This document shows, in pieces, positions 685 to 8,766 of a stretch of DNA of 64,000 nucleotides. The position numbers and the translations under genes were made by a program. This DNA comes from Thermoplasmata archaeon (GTDB lineage: Archaea > Thermoplasmatota > Thermoplasmata > Lutacidiplasmatales > UBA184). Under the pieces are notes generated by a model. It was given only the letters and a program-made list of their open reading frames with translations. It did no database searches and was not told where the DNA came from. The first letter of the stretch is position 1; each line of letters begins with the position of its first letter. The stretch spans positions 1 through 64,000 of the forward strand of contig JAKASQ010000005.1 in NCBI GenBank assembly GCA_021828195.1. The letters are read 5' to 3'.

Positions 685-1710
685 TGAGGGAGGGGTGGGG
701 GGAGGGTTGACTCGTTCGTTTTCCCTCTGCGTCATGCCTTCACCTCGCGGACTTTCTTCGCATACTGCACGGGCGTAAGATACCCGAGCGACGAGTGCGG
801 GCGCTCCTCGTTCCAGTAGCGGATCGCCTCGTCGACCCAGCCCCGAGTCTCGAGGAACGTTCCCGGCTCTCGGATCCAGAAGTAGTCGGCCTTCAGTTTT
901 CCATGGTAGCTCTCGATCATCCCGTTGTCCTCGGGCCGTCGCTTGCGGGTGGCCTCGAGCTCGATTCCGAGCTGCCGGGCGGCCTCCTGGAACCGATGGG
1001 GGGCGACTGGCTCCCTCCGTCGCTGCGCAGCACGAGGCCCGTGGCGCGCGCGGTCTTCGGGAAGCGCGAGAGGACCGCCTCGTCGAGGACTTCCGACGCC
1101 TCGGCGGCCCCGCACGAGGGGAGGAACCGCCACGCGACCACTTCGGGCGTGTAGCCGTTGAGGAACGAGATCAGCGGGCAGGGACCTCGGTCGGTCGTGT
1201 CGAGGTAGGTGAGGTCGGTGTACCACCGTTCGTTCGGGCGCTCGGCAGTGAGCCGTCCGGTCGGCGGGAGCCGCGGTCGTGGGAGATGGGCGGGCTGGAG
1301 CAGCCCCTCCGACGCCAGGATCCGTCGGACCCGCTTGCGGTTGATGGTGAGGCCCGCGCGGCGGGCCAGTGCCGTGACCCGACGGATGCCGTAGGTCCCG
1401 TGGCGGAGGGCGATCGCCCGAATCCGACGGCGGACAAGGAGCTCGTCGGCTCGGGGGCGTCGAGTCGAACGGTCGACGCTTGAGTCGTCCCTCGAAGAAG
1501 TGGAAGCCCGGCGGAAGTTCGGGATCACTTCCGGACGGCGGTAATGTTCTGCTGCGGCGAGGCACAGTTCTACCCGATGATCCACCAGAACGCCGGATGA
1601 AGCCTCTTCAGAGTATGGCTGCGCCCCTTGCACGCGGCCTCCAGCGGTACAGGCCAACCCGTCTTGAGGGTGTTCAATTCTCTGGGCCAGAACATGCTGA
1701 GACTACCTCA
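685..1710 (-). mobile_element. IS3-like insertion sequence, degenerate
   Basis: The span is set by the transposase remnant (732-1657, minus) and by weak terminal similarity: TGAGGGAG at 685-692 and CTACCTCA at 1703-1710 form an imperfect inverted pair (TGAGG-x-AG) with the TG...CA ends usual for this family. No clear target-site duplication was found, so the exact ends are uncertain. The element sits between the tnpB tail and the phosphate operon. The AT-rich sequence after its right end carries the promoter of the first phosphate gene. Confidence 0.45.
732..1657 (-). pseudogene. IS3-family transposase (OrfB-type, DDE), frameshifted
   Basis: Two overlapping minus-strand frames each hold part of one rve/DDE integrase. 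The upstream frame gives the helix-turn-helix-like region (HGTYGIRRVTAL), the first catalytic Asp (RWYTDLTYL) and the second (LRSDGGSQ). Straight after that motif the homology moves to another frame, which supplies FQEAARQLGIELEATRKR, the catalytic Glu (EDNGMIESYHGKLK) and the usual ending (WNEERPHSSLGYLTP). The shift lies near 1000-1010 in a run of Cs and is most simply a small deletion. The OrfA part near 1560-1657 is also hard to read in one frame. All three DDE residues survive, but a single product cannot be made without frameshifting, so I call it a recent pseudogene. Confidence 0.8.
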
Positions 1711-1758
1711 CATACCGGAGGCACTATATTCCTACTTACATAGCTATAGTCTTTATTG

Positions 1759-1772
1759 ATTTACTATATATC
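1759..1772 (+). promoter_or_regulatory. TATA-like box of the phosphate operon
   Basis: An AT-rich run containing ACTATATAT lies in a GC-rich neighbourhood, 14-24 bp before ATG 1783 and about 30 bp before ATG 1795. This fits an archaeal TATA element for a leaderless or very short-leader transcript. It also argues against the in-frame TTG start at 1756, which would put the promoter inside the gene. Confidence 0.6.
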
Positions 1773-1782
1773 GTATCCCTTC

Positions 1783-2778
1783 ATGGCAAAGTCAATGGTA
1801 AACGTCGACCAAGGTAGCGGAGTAGCCGAATACGCTCCGTCGTCAGGACGATTTCCGCCCGTGGCCCGCCATGAGATCGAGCTCGACTTGGAGGTTATCA
1901 ACGAACACCTCTTCAGGGAGCTCGTCGCGGCCTATCTCTCCGGAGCCGACGAGATCGCGATTCAGAGCCGGGCGAGGCTGCCCGGGGCCGCCCTTGCGGT
2001 GGTTCAGACATTCCTGAGCCGGATCGGGACCGGAGCCGTCCACGAGGAGCGCGCCGGTCAGATTGTAGTCCGCGGCATGGATACCTTCGACAGTCACGAA
2101 TTCTCTTCGATGACGTGCCATCTGGGTGAGGCAGTTCTGGAACGTCTCCGACTCGCGGGAAGCGATCCCGCCATTCCTATTGCCGAAGGGCAGTGGGAGG
2201 TCGAAGACGACCCGATCGACCGCTGGGCTTGGGCGGTACATCGTCAGGTGATCCGCTACTGGGAGGGACGGCGCCCCGAAGGATGGGCAGAAGAGGGTCG
2301 GATCGATCCCATCCGCTGGCTAGAAACCTCCCGGGCGCTCGAGCGGATCGGCGACCATGCCACCGCAATCGGAATCCACGCGGGCCGCTGGAAGGCGACA
2401 CAGCCTCCCGAGAGCGAGCGGACCCTCCTTGCGGCGTTCCATGGACAGGCGTGCGACTACCTCACGAGTACTCTAGGTCTACTCGGAGAGACCCGGATTT
2501 CGGTCACAAACTCCCAGTTGGACCAGGGTGAGGCGCTCCGGGAGACCGCCCGAACCTTGGTGGAGCGGTTGCTGGCATTGCGCGAAGGAAGCCCCGCTGC
2601 ATCCCCCGCTACGGTCGTGGCCTTGGGCTGGGTGCTCCACTCGTTAGAGCGCGTCATCGCCTATGCGATGGACATCGCAGAAGTGGGACTGGACCATGCC
2701 GTCGCCGTCCCTTCGCACGTCTCCTCAAAGACACCGTCCTTCTATCAAGGACACGAACGGAGGAAACCGAAACGATGA
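1783..2778 (+). CDS. PhoU-like phosphate regulator, first gene of the pst operon
   Basis: A protein of about 331 aa related to archaeal PhoU proteins. The N-terminal third looks like a small beta-rich regulatory region, and the C-terminal two thirds are helical with PhoU-type segments (ALERIGDHATAIGIHAG, HSLERVIAYAMDIAE) carrying the conserved acidic and Arg residues of PhoU bundles. PhoU proteins damp phosphate uptake by acting on the Pst transporter and on signalling partners. The start at ATG 1783 is chosen because the TATA-like box lies just upstream; ATG 1795 is possible. Its stop overlaps the pstS start (ATGA), so it is translationally coupled. A second, canonical PhoU closes the same operon, which suggests the two have different roles. 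Confidence 0.75.
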   Translation: MAKSMVNVDQGSGVAEYAPSSGRFPPVARHEIELDLEVINEHLFRELVAAYLSGADEIAIQSRARLPGAALAVVQTFLSRIGTGAVHEERAGQIVVRGMDTFDSHEFSSMTCHLGEAVLERLRLAGSDPAIPIAEGQWEVEDDPIDRWAWAVHRQVIRYWEGRRPEGWAEEGRIDPIRWLETSRALERIGDHATAIGIHAGRWKATQPPESERTLLAAFHGQACDYLTSTLGLLGETRISVTNSQLDQGEALRETARTLVERLLALREGSPAASPATVVALGWVLHSLERVIAYAMDIAEVGLDHAVAVPSHVSSKTPSFYQGHERRKPKR

Positions 2779-4025
2779 GCGGAAGAGTGAACGAGCCGCC
2801 AGCGACGAACGATTCCCTATCTGCCGCGGCACCGCGGCGCCCTCGACGGGCGATGATCGGGGCAGGATTGGCCATTGCGATCGGCGTGATCCTCCTGGTG
2901 GCGGGCCTAGGAGGAGGGTATCTAATCGGCAAGGGCGCGGGGGGAAGTTCTAACGGACCGAACACCGTGACCATCACGGAGACCGGATCGACTCTGATCT
3001 ATCCCTATCTGCTCGTGCTCGCCCCGAGCTTCGAGAGTGTCTACTCGAATGTGGTGCTTTCCCCTGCCGGGACAGGTAGTGGTACAGGCATCAGTTCGGC
3101 CGAGTCGGGCACGGTCGACCTGGGTGGGACCGACGCGTATCTGACTCCGAGCGTCGCAGCCCAGCACAACCTGATCAACTTCCCGGTTGCCATATCGTCG
3201 CAGCTCGCCGTCTACAACATCCCGGGGATCACCCAGCACCTCAACCTGAACGCGACGGTGCTTTCGATGATCTATCAGGGTGCCATCACTCAGTGGAACG
3301 ATCCCCTGATCCAAGCGGCGAATCCCGGGGTGAGCCTGCCGGCACACACCATCACCCCCATTCACCGGACGGACGGAAGCGGGGACACGTTCATGTGGAC
3401 ATCTCTATGCTACATGGCATGGTCCGGCTGGAAGCAAAGCTATGGGACCTCCATCACCTGGCCCGTGGGCCCGGGGGCCCAGGGTAACCCAGGGATGGTG
3501 CAGCTCCTATCGACCACGCCGTACGGATTGGCGTATATCGGGATTAGCTATCTGTCGGAGATCGAAGCAGCCAGCGGGCTTCAGTGGGCTGCCCTCGGAG
3601 ATAACAATGCCGACTACAACGGGATCGTAAGCGCATCGGGGGCCGGTCAGCAGAACTACATTCTCCCCACCGCGCAGAACATCAGCGAGGACGCGAACTT
3701 GGGGTTGCTGAATCTTCAGCCACCGAGCGTCGCCGTCAGCCTGATTCTCGGAGGGGTCCCGGGAGCTACCAACCTGGTGAACGGCAAGGGAGGGACAAAT
3801 GCCACGGCGGCCTACCCGACCCCCTACCCAGACACGAACCTGGAGTACCTTCTCGTCTCGAGCGCACCGGCGAGCCCATCCCATCAGACCTGGGTTCTCG
3901 CGTTCTTGGAGTGGGCCCTCGCATACGGAGGAACCTATGCGCCTAAGGTCTCGTTCCTGCCGCTGACGCCGGCGGTGATTGGATACGATATGCTGGCGCT
4001 AGACCAGGTTGCGATCGGCGGGTGA
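2775..4025 (+). CDS. pstS: Phosphate ABC transporter substrate-binding protein PstS
   Basis: A 416-aa periplasmic-binding-type protein. Residues about 24-50 form one hydrophobic helix (AGLAIAIGVILLVAGLGGGYL) and probably anchor the protein to the outer face of the membrane. The mature part starts with TITETGSTLIYPYL and contains GTGSGTGISSAESGTVDLGGTDAYL-type sequence, the phosphate-binding loops typical of PstS (TGSTL, SGSGxG, D-x-G-x-x-D). HRTDGSGDTFMWTSL matches the third phosphate-contacting segment. It captures inorganic phosphate for PstCAB. The gene overlaps the upstream phoU-like gene by 4 nt and the downstream pstC start (GTGA), so the operon is tightly coupled. Length is normal for archaeal PstS. 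Confidence 0.93.
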   Translation: MSGRVNEPPATNDSLSAAAPRRPRRAMIGAGLAIAIGVILLVAGLGGGYLIGKGAGGSSNGPNTVTITETGSTLIYPYLLVLAPSFESVYSNVVLSPAGTGSGTGISSAESGTVDLGGTDAYLTPSVAAQHNLINFPVAISSQLAVYNIPGITQHLNLNATVLSMIYQGAITQWNDPLIQAANPGVSLPAHTITPIHRTDGSGDTFMWTSLCYMAWSGWKQSYGTSITWPVGPGAQGNPGMVQLLSTTPYGLAYIGISYLSEIEAASGLQWAALGDNNADYNGIVSASGAGQQNYILPTAQNISEDANLGLLNLQPPSVAVSLILGGVPGATNLVNGKGGTNATAAYPTPYPDTNLEYLLVSSAPASPSHQTWVLAFLEWALAYGGTYAPKVSFLPLTPAVIGYDMLALDQVAIGG

Positions 4026-5101
4026 GCTACGAGAACCAAGTAGCACCCTTAATGCCGGATCCCGAACCCGACAGTGAACCCCTTCCCGCGGAGGCGGCAG
4101 GCAACCGGCCCGCCGCCCCCGCAAAATCTGCCCGGCTCGGAATCCCGCGGAGCTGGTGGGCGTGGATTGGGAGCCCGGTGGCGCTCCTTCCGTTCTTGGT
4201 CCTGGCGCTCATCACCGGCGTTCTCCTGAATGCGAGCGCCCTGCGAAACTTCGGCTGGTCATTCTGGAGCTTCAACTACAATTTCCTCCCGCAGACCCCG
4301 GACCAGTCCAGTTGGGGGATCGGGGTCTTCGTTCTCGGTACAGCCCTGACCGCGGGATTGGCCATCGTGTTCGCCACACTATTGAGCCTCGCCTTGGCGA
4401 TATCGGTAGTGGTCTACCTTCCGTCGGGCCCCAGCCGAGTGCTGAACATGCTCACGAACCTGCTCGCGGGGATCCCGAGCGTTGTCTACGGTATCTGGGG
4501 ATTCGTCATTCTCGCCCCGTACTTTGGGATTACGGTCGAACCGACGCTGCGAGCGTTCCTCTTCTGGCTCCCGGGATTTGGGGGCCCGGCATCGGAGATC
4601 GGGTCCTGGGGGATTCTGCTCGCCGTTTTCCTTCTGACGATCATGATCATACCTCTTACCACCGCGCTCATGCGCTCGGCCCTGCAGAGCGTGCCCCGCG
4701 ACCTGGTCGATTCGGCAGTCGCTCTCGGGGCCACCCGCTGGGAGGTCACCCGACGAGTGCGCTTTCGGGTGGCCCGACGGGGGCTCTCGAGCGCGATCTT
4801 GCTGGGCCTCGGCCGCGCCCTCGGGGAGAGCGTCGCTGTGGCCATGGTCATCGGCGGCGTGACCAGCATTCCCGTGAGCTTGTATTCGGCCTCGACGAGT
4901 CTCCCGTCCTTCATCTTTTTCCAGCTCGACAGTGCCTTCACGTATCCCGATCTCCTCGTGCTGCTCGTCGAGTTCGCGCTCGTTCTGTTGATCATCACGA
5001 TGGTGGTTAACATAGTTGCCCAGCGCCTCACTCAGACGGAGCTTGCGACCGCGACCACGGTCGGAACACTGTTGAGTGAGGAAGGGGAGCTCGAACGATG
5101 A
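4022..5101 (+). CDS. pstC: Phosphate ABC transporter permease PstC
   Basis: A 359-aa inner-membrane permease starting at GTG 4022, which overlaps the pstS stop. After a polar N-terminal tail of about 45 aa come six predicted membrane helices. The cytoplasmic EAA loop that docks onto PstB reads DLVDSAVALGATRWEVTRRV, followed by a helix with GLGRALGESVAVAMVIGG, which is highly typical of PstC/PstA. It forms the phosphate channel together with PstA. The gene ends in an ATGA overlap with pstA. The polar, Glu/Pro-rich N-terminal extension is longer than in many bacterial PstC proteins. Confidence 0.93.
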   Translation: MSYENQVAPLMPDPEPDSEPLPAEAAGNRPAAPAKSARLGIPRSWWAWIGSPVALLPFLVLALITGVLLNASALRNFGWSFWSFNYNFLPQTPDQSSWGIGVFVLGTALTAGLAIVFATLLSLALAISVVVYLPSGPSRVLNMLTNLLAGIPSVVYGIWGFVILAPYFGITVEPTLRAFLFWLPGFGGPASEIGSWGILLAVFLLTIMIIPLTTALMRSALQSVPRDLVDSAVALGATRWEVTRRVRFRVARRGLSSAILLGLGRALGESVAVAMVIGGVTSIPVSLYSASTSLPSFIFFQLDSAFTYPDLLVLLVEFALVLLIITMVVNIVAQRLTQTELATATTVGTLLSEEGELER

Positions 5102-6015
5102 CGGCGGGAGCGGAGGGCCGGGGGGAGCAAGCCACGACGCTGACCTACGCATCCGTCTCGGGAAGGACGCGCCGGCGGCTGGTCTTCGACCGATTGATCC
5201 CGTGGCTGCTTCCCCTCGCCTTCGTGGCAGTGCTCTTCCCGTTGTTCGATATGATCTTCTGGGTCGCTCAGAAAGCGGTGCCGACCTTCACCTTGGCTAC
5301 TTTGACCGAGACCCAGGTCGGGTTCGGAGGAGGACTCTACTCGATGATCCTCGGGACCTTGATCTTGATCGCTATCGGAACGGCGATCGCTACCGGAATC
5401 GGCATAGCCGCCGGGTTTTACACGGCCGAGTACGCGCCACCCGCCGTGGCCAGCTTCGGTCGGCTGGCCGGCAATATCCTAGCGGGCGTTCCTGCGATCG
5501 TCCTCGGCTACTTCGGATACTACCTGCTCGTTCTCTACACGAACTGGGGCTTCACGACGCTCGCCGGGGGAATCGTGCTCGGAATCTTCATGGTCCCATA
5601 CGTCTACCGCACCACGGACGTGGCCCTGACGGGCGTCCCGCCGACCCAGCGGGAAGCGGCGCTCGCGATGGGCGCAAGGCCGCGTCAATATCTCCTTCGG
5701 ATCGCGTTCCCGATTGCTCTCCCTACCATCCTAACGGGGATCTTCTTCGCCATGGCCCTCGGGCTCGGCGAGGCGGCTCCCATTGTCTATACTGCGGGGT
5801 GGAGTTCCACCCCGATCACCGGCCTGATGCAGCCCACCTCCTTCTTGACCGGAGCGATTTGGCTGTTCTATGACCTCCCCCCCTCCGAAGGAACGCTCCT
5901 CACCCTGGCGTTCCAGGCGGCGTTCCTGTTGATCCTCATCGTCCTGGCCCTCAATGTGATCGTTCAACTCCTTTCGGATCGCTACCGCCGGCGCCTGCAG
6001 GGGCTCTTCGAATGA
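5098..6015 (+). CDS. pstA: Phosphate ABC transporter permease PstA
   Basis: A 305-aa permease with six predicted membrane segments. The PstA signature is clear: LAGNILAGVPAIVLGYFGYY in the middle, the EAA loop PTQREAALAMGARPRQYLLR, and the following helix with GLGEAAPIVYTAG. It pairs with PstC to make the transmembrane channel of the high-affinity phosphate transporter and contacts PstB through the EAA loop. The gene overlaps pstC and pstB by 4 nt on each side, so equal translation of the subunits is expected. Confidence 0.93.
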   Translation: MTAGAEGRGEQATTLTYASVSGRTRRRLVFDRLIPWLLPLAFVAVLFPLFDMIFWVAQKAVPTFTLATLTETQVGFGGGLYSMILGTLILIAIGTAIATGIGIAAGFYTAEYAPPAVASFGRLAGNILAGVPAIVLGYFGYYLLVLYTNWGFTTLAGGIVLGIFMVPYVYRTTDVALTGVPPTQREAALAMGARPRQYLLRIAFPIALPTILTGIFFAMALGLGEAAPIVYTAGWSSTPITGLMQPTSFLTGAIWLFYDLPPSEGTLLTLAFQAAFLLILIVLALNVIVQLLSDRYRRRLQGLFE

Positions 6016-6794
6016 GCGCGGAAAGTGTTCCGAACCCCAACGGCGTGGCCCTCCGTGTTCGCCATCTCTCCGTCCGTGCACGAGACCGCGCAATCCTAAC
6101 GGACATTTCGATCGACATCCCCGACAAGGAAGTGACGGCGGTCATCGGACCGTCCGGCTGCGGCAAGACTACGTTCATCCGGTCGCTCAATCGGATGACC
6201 GAGACCACGCACGGGCTCACCGTCCAAGGCTCGGTCCTGTACCGTGGGCAGGAGGAGATCTATAGCCCGTCGGTCGCTCCGGTCCTCGTTCGTCAACGGA
6301 TCGGCATGGTCTTCCAGCGTCCGACCGTTTTCCCTATCAGCGTCTACGAGAACGTCGCCTTCGGCCTCCGGCTCGAGCACCAGCCCGAGGATCGGATCGA
6401 GCAGGAGGTCGAGTATTCGCTGGTACGCGCCGGGGTCTGGGAGGAAGTCAAGAAAGATCTCGACCGGCCGGCGCTCTCCCTCTCGGGCGGTCAGCAGCAG
6501 CGGATATGCATTGCGCGGGCCCTCGCGGTGCGGCCCCGGATACTGTTGATGGACGAGCCGACCGCGAGCCTGGACCCAGTCTCCACTCAGCGCGTCGAGG
6601 CAACGCTCGAGGAACTGAGCCGGGAGATTAGCATCGTCATGGTTACCCACAGCATTGCCCAGGCGGCTCGCGCTTCGACCCGAACGGCGTACTTCTACCA
6701 AGGACGGCTCATCGAGGAGGGCCCGACCGAGGAGTTGTTCGAACGTCCTAAACAAGAGTTAACGGAGGAGTACGTGACAGGGAGATTTGGATGA
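6012..6794 (+). CDS. pstB: Phosphate ABC transporter ATP-binding protein PstB
   Basis: A 260-aa ABC ATPase. Walker A is GPSGCGKTT (about residues 38-46), the Q-loop lies in GMVFQRPTVFP, the signature is LSGGQQQR, and Walker B is ILLMDEPTASLD, followed by the switch histidine in MVTHS. The segment RSLNRMTE after Walker A is characteristic of PstB. It hydrolyses ATP on the cytoplasmic face to drive phosphate import through PstCA. Overlapping starts and stops couple it to pstA and to the terminal phoU. Confidence 0.95.
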   Translation: MSAESVPNPNGVALRVRHLSVRARDRAILTDISIDIPDKEVTAVIGPSGCGKTTFIRSLNRMTETTHGLTVQGSVLYRGQEEIYSPSVAPVLVRQRIGMVFQRPTVFPISVYENVAFGLRLEHQPEDRIEQEVEYSLVRAGVWEEVKKDLDRPALSLSGGQQQRICIARALAVRPRILLMDEPTASLDPVSTQRVEATLEELSREISIVMVTHSIAQAARASTRTAYFYQGRLIEEGPTEELFERPKQELTEEYVTGRFG

Positions 6795-7534
6795 GCGGAA
6801 ATCCCACGCCGGGGGCGGAGCCTCCAGCCGGTATCGATCGGGAGTTGGAGCGGCTACGCGCGAGCGCGGTGGGGATGGGCCAGTGGTCGCTCGGCATGGT
6901 GCACGACGGCTGGGACGCGTTCGATCGGAGGGATCTCGCGCTCGCACAAGCAGTTCTGGATCGCGCCGATCGCCTCGATCAGCTCGATCAGGAGGTCGAG
7001 CACGAAACGATTGCCTTCCTCGTGACCCGGCGTCCGGCGGCGGTGGCGCTGCGGACGACCGTGGCCGTGCTGAAGGCCTCGACCCACCTCGACCGCATCG
7101 GTCGGCTCGGGTTCGACATCGCGCGGATGACGACGGGGGGGGCCCAGCACGGTAGTCCTGATGTTCGCACGATCCTCCAGTCGATGGACCAGGTCGCCGA
7201 ATCCATGGTGCAGGATTCGCTTGAGTCGCTCGCGCAGGGCCACTCCGAACTGGCTCGAGGGTTGTTCGTTCGGGACGACCAGATGGACCAGATGCATCGT
7301 CAGGCCATGCGGCTCGTTGTTCGGGAGCTCGAGCGCGATCCGCGCTCGGCCCCACGCCTTTCGAGCGAGCTGATGGTCGCACGACACTTTGAGCGCATCG
7401 CCGATAACGCGTGCAAGATCGGCGAGAAGACGATTTATGCGATCACTGGCCAACGTCGGTCGGAGTATCTTCCTCGACACCCGTACGTCCCGTATGCTCT
7501 CGAGCGGCGCGACGGATCTCCCCCGTACCCGTAG
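6791..7534 (+). CDS. phoU: PhoU phosphate-transport regulator
   Basis: A 247-aa all-helical protein of the PhoU family, normal in length, with two PhoU repeats. Conserved segments include HETIAFLVTRRPAA, the helix with LKASTHLDRIGRLGFDIARM, and the second repeat's HFERIADNACKIGEKTIY, where the E-R-I-x-D-N-A pattern is diagnostic of metal-binding PhoU helices. It probably restrains the Pst transporter when phosphate is plentiful. The gene closes the operon, overlapping pstB by 4 nt. It is shorter and more canonical than the PhoU-like protein that opens the operon. Confidence 0.9.
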   Translation: MSGNPTPGAEPPAGIDRELERLRASAVGMGQWSLGMVHDGWDAFDRRDLALAQAVLDRADRLDQLDQEVEHETIAFLVTRRPAAVALRTTVAVLKASTHLDRIGRLGFDIARMTTGGAQHGSPDVRTILQSMDQVAESMVQDSLESLAQGHSELARGLFVRDDQMDQMHRQAMRLVVRELERDPRSAPRLSSELMVARHFERIADNACKIGEKTIYAITGQRRSEYLPRHPYVPYALERRDGSPPYP

Positions 7535-8481: not shown

Positions 8482-8632
8482 TGCGGGGGGCCGGAAGTTC
8501 CGGAGACCGGCGTCGCGCGTCGGACCTCCCTTTGAACCGGCGAATGCCCTAGGCAACAGGGTCCTAAGCCCTGCCTCGCGAGCCCCGTTCGAGATGGCCC
8601 CGAACGGATTGGCCGAACTGGAGCACCCCCGC
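8482..8632 (-). tRNA. tRNA-Leu(TAG) with two introns (D-loop and T-loop)
   Basis: Read on the minus strand, three exons join into an 85-nt class II tRNA: 8632-8609, 8577-8531 and 8495-8482. The acceptor GCGGGGG pairs perfectly with CCCCCGC, discriminator A. The D-stem is CTC/GAG with loop CAGTTCGGCCAA. The anticodon arm is CAGGG-CTTAGGA-CCCTG, giving anticodon TAG. A long variable arm follows, and the T-arm is GCCGG-TTCAAAT-CCGGC. Intron 1 (8608-8578, 31 nt) folds into a CCGTTCG/CGAACGG hairpin. Intron 2 (8530-8496, 35 nt) interrupts the T-loop between positions 59 and 60. Boundaries may slip by 1-2 nt. No CCA is encoded. It probably shares a transcript with the tRNA-Gln 27 nt upstream. Confidence 0.88.
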
Positions 8633-8659: not shown

Positions 8660-8766
8660 TAGCCCCGGCAGGATTTCCGGCGCGTGGATTCGCGGACCCA
8701 CTCGGCGTTCGAACCTGCGTCGCAGGATCCAGAGTCCCGCATGATTGGCCACTACACTACGGGGCT
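8660..8766 (-). tRNA. tRNA-Gln(CTG) with a T-loop intron
   Basis: On the minus strand the exons 8766-8708 and 8673-8660 make a 73-nt tRNA. Acceptor AGCCCCG pairs fully with CGGGGCT, discriminator A. The D-arm contains AGTGGCCAATC as in archaeal tRNA-Gln. The anticodon arm is CGGGA-CTCTGGA-TCCTG (anticodon CTG), and the T-arm GCAGG-TTCGAAT-CCTGC is completed only after a 34-nt insert (8707-8674) is removed. The insert lies at T-loop position 59/60, the same place as in the neighbouring tRNA-Leu, and contains a GTGGG/TCCAC hairpin. The junction can slide by up to two A residues. No CCA is encoded. Confidence 0.9.

Follow-up and report, generated by a model that had tools for sequence, protein, structure and literature searches.

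A tRNA-Leu(UAG) gene interrupted by two introns lies on the minus strand of the window, by which we mean the whole 64,000-nt stretch of Thermoplasmata contig JAKASQ010000005.1 (GCA_021828195.1) that was analysed, next to a tRNA-Gln(CUG) gene that carries an intron of its own (Table 1). The Leu gene has the acceptor GCGGGGG/CCCCCGC followed by A73, a U8, the anticodon loop CUUAGGA, a class II variable arm and the T-stem GCCGG/CCGGC. Its D-loop intron is inserted after GGCCAA, and its T-loop intron follows UUCAAA at the boundary of positions 59 and 60. In the raw window ARAGORN calls no Leu tRNA at this locus; with both introns removed, the joined exons form a full cloverleaf that it calls as an 86-nt tRNA-Leu(tag). 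For the Gln gene the raw call is 8694-8765, with the 3' end wrong. The original prediction of a tRNA-Leu(UAG) with D-loop and T-loop introns in a Thermoplasmata genome is supported by the sequence and by the spliced call, and its remark that such genes are often missed by annotation agrees with the raw one. Its coordinates were exact, with no strand given. Of its lengths (introns of 31 and 35 nt, mature tRNA of 85 nt) the T-loop value stands, whereas the other two are one base off, the correct lengths being 30 nt for the D-loop intron and 86 nt for the mature tRNA. The observation is real and well supported as a gene structure, from which we infer splicing.

Table 1 Features of the tRNA-Gln(CUG) and tRNA-Leu(UAG) locus in window coordinates. 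BHB, bulge-helix-bulge; R1 and R2, covariance models described in the text.
Feature	Position	Strand	Description	Support
tRNA-Gln(CUG) gene	8660..8766	-	107 nt, mature 73 nt; 27 nt upstream of tRNA-Leu	
Gln T-loop intron	8674..8707	-	site 59/60, 34 nt	R1 E 1.6e-5; R2 E 4.5e-5
tRNA-Leu(UAG) gene	8482..8632	-	151 nt, mature 86 nt	sequence; ARAGORN tRNA-Leu(tag) once spliced
Leu exon 1	8609..8632	-	acceptor 5' strand, U8, D-arm to A21	
Leu D-loop intron	8579..8608	-	30 nt	BHB
Leu exon 2	8531..8578	-	D-stem 3' strand, anticodon arm with UAG, variable arm, T-stem 5' strand, UUCAAA	
Leu T-loop intron	8496..8530	-	site 59/60, 35 nt	R1 E 3.6e-7; R2 E 1.8e-7; BHB covariation of the set
Leu exon 3	8482..8495	-	U60, T-stem 3' strand, acceptor 3' strand, A73	
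Leu T-arm				matched by R1 and R2

The length of the D-loop intron follows from a scan of 17 candidate cuts, 10 of which were accepted by ARAGORN. The 30-nt cut gives the best BHB among those accepted (H 4/4, h 3/3, h' 4/4), and the D-arm it leaves is as long as that of the orthologous intronless Leu gene in a related genome (G003). The 3' end of the intron pairs with the exon stretch GGCC, which, by our own homology numbering, would include G18-G19. This central helix is complete (4/4) in 6/6 intron-bearing genomes of the family and in 4/4 named MAGs, one of which (L043) hardly differs from the window. When tRNA-bearing loci totalling 90 kb, which partly overlap so that one gene may count twice, were scanned under strict criteria, there were five matches, compared with none in each of five Markov-shuffled copies.

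Other readings of the locus were set aside. Rfam gives only sub-threshold matches there, to tRNA-Gln and to a togavirus frameshift element, the latter taken as chance. It has no group I or group II intron match in the window or at the locus, and the T-loop introns of the 115 genes described below measure 13-47 nt (median 32 nt in this genome). A split or permuted tRNA is ruled out, as the Leu parts follow one another in the normal order over 151 nt. A plus-strand reading of the tRNA was rejected (C33 in the anticodon loop, no U8), and because the gene is on the minus strand the plus-strand fold is not evidence. Elsewhere in the window, translations inspected by eye suggest a phosphate-uptake operon with two PhoU-like genes at 1756-7534, and overlapping frames at 732-1657 (minus strand) resemble, by eye, an IS3-type transposase.

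The neighbouring phosphatase gene led to four related Thermoplasmata MAGs, all of which (4/4) have the Gln-Leu tandem with two T-loop-intron matches and the Leu D-loop intron; the tandem is also kept in six fetched relatives. The MAG AcS11-62 is listed as Candidatus Lutacidiplasmatales, from pine-forest soil and with 67% GC (PMC9287336), and the GC content of the window is 65-68%. The genome thus probably belongs to this order or lies close to it. Among four genomes from three genera that have both Leu introns, the Leu exons are 97-99% identical, compared with 53-63% for the D-loop introns, 54-77% for the T-loop introns and 53-68% for the flanks; the exons were extracted with a pattern typed from sequences already seen, which matched all four genomes tried. 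In genera without the Leu T-loop intron the Leu exons are more divergent.

The Leu T-loop intron has many counterparts in the same genome (G000; a 1.62-Mb assembly, 93.6% complete). A search with the tRNA family RF00005 gives 41 matches, many of them weak or truncated, and on reading these contain T-loop introns at one site. We built a covariance model of T-arm plus intron from 11 genes (R1) and a broader one from the R1 matches (R2). R1 finds 12 genes at E < 2e-5, then Lys UUU (E 0.004) and His GUG (E 0.03), with the next best match at 1.8; R2 finds the same 14 genes at E <= 4e-4. These are Leu UAG, Gln CUG, Asn GUU, Arg UCU, Arg UCG, Gly UCC, Ser GCU, Ser GGA, Ser CGA, Ala GGC, Asp GUC, Glu CUC, Lys UUU and His GUG. 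Hence the two introns in one tRNA that the original prediction singled out are real, yet the main point is the presence of T-loop introns at site 59/60 in 14 tRNA genes; nor is Leu alone in having two, given that tRNA-Lys(UUU) also combines extra D-loop sequence with a T-loop intron.

Adding Leu, Lys and His to the 41 matches gives 44 places, and leaving out one odd match (L030) gives 43 tRNA genes, 20 of which are interrupted in our reading by a total of 22 introns: 14 in the T-loop, four in the D-loop and four at 37/38. The D-loop introns are those of Leu and Lys and, by eye, of one CAT tRNA (L038) and Arg GCG (L040); the Lys cut was likewise placed by eye, and an automatic cut scan did not recover it and did not settle the introns of L038 and L040. 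The 37/38 introns, also read by eye, are in Met, Tyr, Trp and Leu UAA. The Trp gene (L026, G000:C2:261169-261331, plus strand) has a long 37/38 intron, of a kind that nests a box C/D RNA elsewhere (PMC4090602). The odd match (G000:C1:85313-85385, plus strand) is a tRNA-like sequence scoring 27 bits whose D-arm is poor and whose acceptor resembles that of Gly; it is a pseudo or odd tRNA gene. Neither tRNA-Pro(UGG) nor tRNA-Pro(GGG) was found in this genome or in its relative G004 (rated 100% complete), and both may be hidden behind further introns.

Across 14 genomes, the R2 matches comprise 115 T-loop-intron genes, and all 115, the Leu gene of the window among them, have a 5/5 T-stem and a 7/7 acceptor with U8. 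ARAGORN, run with anticodon-loop introns allowed, places the right 3' end in 112/115 once the T-loop intron is removed and in 0/115 unspliced, with some overlapping unspliced call in 28/115; the tRNA counts of such genomes may thus be wrong. Its isotypes are often wrong for genes with further insertions, and isotypes were set from the anticodon arm where readable. Since R2 was built from R1 matches, the match counts depend on a single design; neither model enters into the acceptor and ARAGORN tests.

R1 has matches in 101/101 sampled family genomes from 7/7 genera, at 3 to 15 per genome, and in 163/300 genomes of the class with the own family included (E 0.001); R2 has matches in 60/292 genomes of the phylum, again with the own family included (E 1e-4). 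Searches of more than 40 genomes used stricter filters. Outside the family, the class search gave 1 to 5 R1 matches in genomes having any. Of 30 fetched matches from outside the family (L109-L138), the 25 read by script all have a 7-pair acceptor, and the other five lie near contig ends. One genome of family f3 (G218) has eight R2 matches (L131, L173, L184, L249-L253), Arg UCU, Arg UCG, Asp and Glu among them; in seven of the eight the intron measures 13-14 nt. The T-loop intron of tRNA-Lys(UUU) occurs in families f1, f2, f3 and f22. A further tRNA-Lys(UUU) in family f25 (L169, G154:C25:87270-87326, minus strand), mislabelled Ala CGC by the script, apparently has D-loop, anticodon-loop and T-loop introns, as judged by eye.

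Read gene by gene, eight genomes of the family have a T-loop intron in 8 to 14 tRNA genes, always at 59/60. The same 14 tRNAs carry it in G000 and G004 (genus g1), G005 (g5) and G006 (g6), and the number is 11 in G007, 10 in G001, 9 in G002 and 8 in G003. At the orthologous tandem, the Leu gene itself has no intron in G003, while G007 and G001 have the D-loop intron alone and G000, G004, G005 and G006 have both introns; this series covers seven of the eight genomes, all but G002. In a tree of 21 EndA rows, the genera with both Leu introns form one clade (support 100/98) and the other four genera another (95/96). The best reading is that the Leu T-loop intron was probably gained once in the first clade and that the D-loop intron would either have arisen before the two clades separated, with a later loss in G003, or have arisen on two occasions. 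This direction of change, running by gain, rests on one gene tree with long outgroup branches and on absences at the sensitivity of the models. An orthologous Leu gene with zero, one or two introns makes intron gain directly testable.

All T-loop introns can be drawn on one plan. The T-stem would serve as the outer helix, U54-U55-C56-R57 would pair with four bases close to the intron's 3' end, 3-nt bulges would lie on both sides and an intron hairpin would follow, each bulge being cut after its second base. For the 11 genes, 90.9% of the pairs in this structure are standard and the covariation score is 0.696, compared with 0.194 when shuffled. For 53 distinct rows from several families it has 95.1% standard pairs and a score of 0.675 versus 0.169, part of this excess being built in because that alignment was fitted to the structure; sliding the partner by one base lowers the covariation of the same alignment to <=0.15. 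R57 covaries with its partner (G57-C in 45/47; A57-G in 51/68 and A57-U in 15/68). Among the 115 genes the central helix has 4/4 pairs in 57, 3/4 in 56 and 2/4 in 2. The fourth pair is an A-G mismatch in 51/115, Leu included, so the Leu T-loop BHB is near-canonical and not strict.

Free folding gives another picture. When the Leu precursor is folded in full, its minimum-energy structure differs from a cloverleaf (z -1.94, with 8/200 shuffles as stable), as does that of the Gln precursor (z -0.36), and the BHB was not the favoured free fold in either precursor, which is not a usual defining feature of the motif. Of 11 isolated T-arms, 9 fold into T-stem plus intron hairpin and 2 show the central helix, with the Gln and Ser GGA arms taking another fold. 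The folding program may well miss the native fold in such G+C-rich RNA, and the case for the predicted motif rests on conservation and covariation, not on energy.

Archaeal splicing cuts after the second base of each 3-nt bulge, and U54-U55-C56 is invariant across tRNAs while R57 varies. Because of this invariance one T-loop intron design fits every tRNA, and any tRNA would be able to accommodate an intron that has the matching 3' end. The Leu D-loop intron would use the same trick on the GGCC stretch holding G18-G19. In the mature tRNA, G18-U55 and G19-C56 make the elbow. As both introns pair with these D-loop and T-loop elbow bases, splicing would precede elbow formation, and the unspliced precursor probably cannot reach the mature shape. 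A special enzyme would be unneeded, with the T-stem and the intron hairpin acting as flanking helices and U54-U55-C56-R57 as the central helix. A motif so close to the standard one suits a narrow enzyme more readily than the label 'non-canonical' would imply.

The splicing endonuclease of this genome, EndA, is encoded by one gene (L031:718-1782 on G000:C6; 354 aa, order N-C-N-C). The original prediction had proposed looking for a second subunit; a PF01974 search of the genome at E up to 10 matches this one gene only, with two repeats, and gives no separate beta subunit. Both repeats lie in one open frame in 21/21 genomes, and no third PF01974 match was found in the 21 genomes at E 0.001. EndA aligns with the A. 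fulgidus alpha'2 enzyme. Compared with the alignment reference 3p1y, an A. fulgidus enzyme with a grafted crenarchaeal loop, it has no insert at the place of the CSL/ASL loop, and by eye none is present in 21/21 aligned rows. A single-sequence model (pLDDT 38) was replaced by one made from the alignment (pLDDT 93.7), whose best structural match is the fused Methanopyrus enzyme 5x89 (TM 0.87/0.91), followed by A. fulgidus 2gjw (TM 0.77/0.87). The fused Methanopyrus type is listed as constrained broad (PMC6379350). By alignment and model, EndA is predicted to be a two-repeat, alpha'2-like single chain without the loop tied to broad specificity. A single RtcB (PF01139) accompanies it, and RtcB is present in 5/5 genomes searched.

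We regard the locus as very probably a working Gln(CUG)-Leu(UAG) tandem, with small archaeal introns that would be cut at the BHB by the splicing endonuclease and sealed by RtcB. A pseudogene or decaying tRNA gene with no more than the appearance of being spliceable, with the true tRNA-Leu(UAG) elsewhere, could account for ARAGORN finding no unspliced Leu, for RF00005 missing the gene and for a free fold of the precursor that is not a cloverleaf, but it is extremely improbable given that introns and flanks have drifted among three genera whose exons stay conserved, and that the tandem is kept in the four named MAGs and six relatives. In addition, no other tRNA-Leu(UAG) is found among the 41 RF00005 matches of the genome, in a search that misses genes with such introns.

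Three readings were weighed of why so many tRNAs have the same kind of intron. Copying of one intron into many tRNAs, proposed before for Thermoproteales and perhaps still under way here, would suit the common site, like ends and like length (median 32 nt) in 14 different tRNAs, the zero, one and two introns of the Leu orthologues, and a few alike interiors across genomes and tRNAs (0.913 for the best pair, Gln in G001 with Ala in G002, and 0.87 for the next). However, within a genome the interiors of different tRNAs have a mean identity of 0.577 (528 pairs, best 0.79), compared with 0.561 (best 0.78) when shuffled, and interiors of the same tRNA across genomes reach only 0.615. The high-identity pairs are G+C-rich hairpins, and the 0.913 and 0.87 pairs are tentatively taken as chance or convergence. 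Three scans of IMG/VR viral contigs gave no match to intron-bearing 3' halves of the Ser, Arg/Asp or Leu type. The interiors thus lend no support to recent copying, an old spread followed by drift would be consistent with them, and we rate spread by copying as somewhat unlikely overall. An ancestral origin in many tRNAs with loss in sister genera and families, which we consider unlikely, is favoured by the eight matches of G218 in f3; the Lys(UUU) intron shared by f1, f2, f3 and f22 makes at least one intron old. On the other hand, the T-loop introns of Leu(UAG) and Ser(CGA) are present in 4/4 genomes of g1/g5/g6 and in 0/4 of g2/g3/g4/g7 and 0/3 of f2/f3, and Glu(CUC) has the same pattern within the family, yet is also found in G218. 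Introns might also be kept since they break the integration site of a virus or plasmid, a proposal of Randau and Soell (as related in PMC3293823 and PMC4390854): integration often takes place at tRNA genes, and it would be blocked where an intron interrupts the attachment site. We hold this to be quite improbable as the explanation here.

A bolder account, which we hold to be somewhat less likely than not, is that in this family the T-loop became a universal landing site, at which introns with a 3' end complementary to U54-U55-C56 and adjusted to R57 would have been gained repeatedly at 59/60 alongside a two-repeat endonuclease without the broad-specificity loop, since the site can provide a near-canonical BHB whatever the tRNA. 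Along with the D-loop introns that pair with G18-G19, they would mask the elbow and force splicing to come before folding, T-loop modification and end-processing.

Non-canonical tRNA introns are already known (673 in 217 archaeal genomes; PMC8450103), and a single T-loop intron is of a known kind. In Euryarchaeota, fewer than 10% of tRNA genes are reported to have introns, one each and at the canonical position (PMC4090602), whereas in three Asgard genomes 92-95% of tRNA genes bear introns (PMC11291895). The alpha'2 enzymes are listed as narrow (PMC6379350), a narrowness tied in a 2025 structural paper to the missing loop (PMC12397907), and the Ferroplasma homodimer cuts minimal BHB substrates (PMC8707768). 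The main text of the Lutacidiplasmatales paper (PMC9287336) does not contain the word 'intron', and no paper on T-loop introns in Thermoplasmata was found by title and start of abstract, although cases in cultured Thermoplasmatales may be in print. The lineage-wide filling of one T-loop site in the presence of a two-repeat enzyme is absent from the literature consulted. A whole family with such an enzyme here has many interrupted tRNA genes, where reviews describe few, all canonical, for Euryarchaeota of this type. This contrast probably resolves once position is told apart from motif, the place being odd and the motif nearly standard, and the finding separates the two in the story of enzyme-intron co-evolution.

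The closest known systems each share part of this arrangement. Thermoproteales, Caldiarchaeum and the Asgard Atabeyarchaeia and Freyarchaeia also have small BHB introns, several per tRNA and in the D- and T-arms as well (PMC4033280, PMC3293823, PMC11291895); their introns are at various positions, whereas here one T-loop site dominates. Non-canonical introns have been tied to heterotetrameric enzymes (PMC4090602), in contrast to the single two-repeat chain without the broad-specificity loop found here. The transposed introns of the Thermoproteales type likewise place one kind of intron in many tRNAs but are very similar between them, whereas the interiors here are near the shuffled level within a genome. 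Canonical 37/38 introns, of which this genome has four in our reading, use the same kind of motif; they pair with anticodon-loop bases, and the T-loop introns with U54-U55-C56-R57. Finally, the alpha'2 EndA of A. fulgidus and Thermoplasma acidophilum is, as here, a single chain with N-C-N-C repeats, although shorter (305 and 289 aa; PMC6379350), and the substrates of the enzyme described here are, unlike theirs, predicted to lie mostly in the T-loop.
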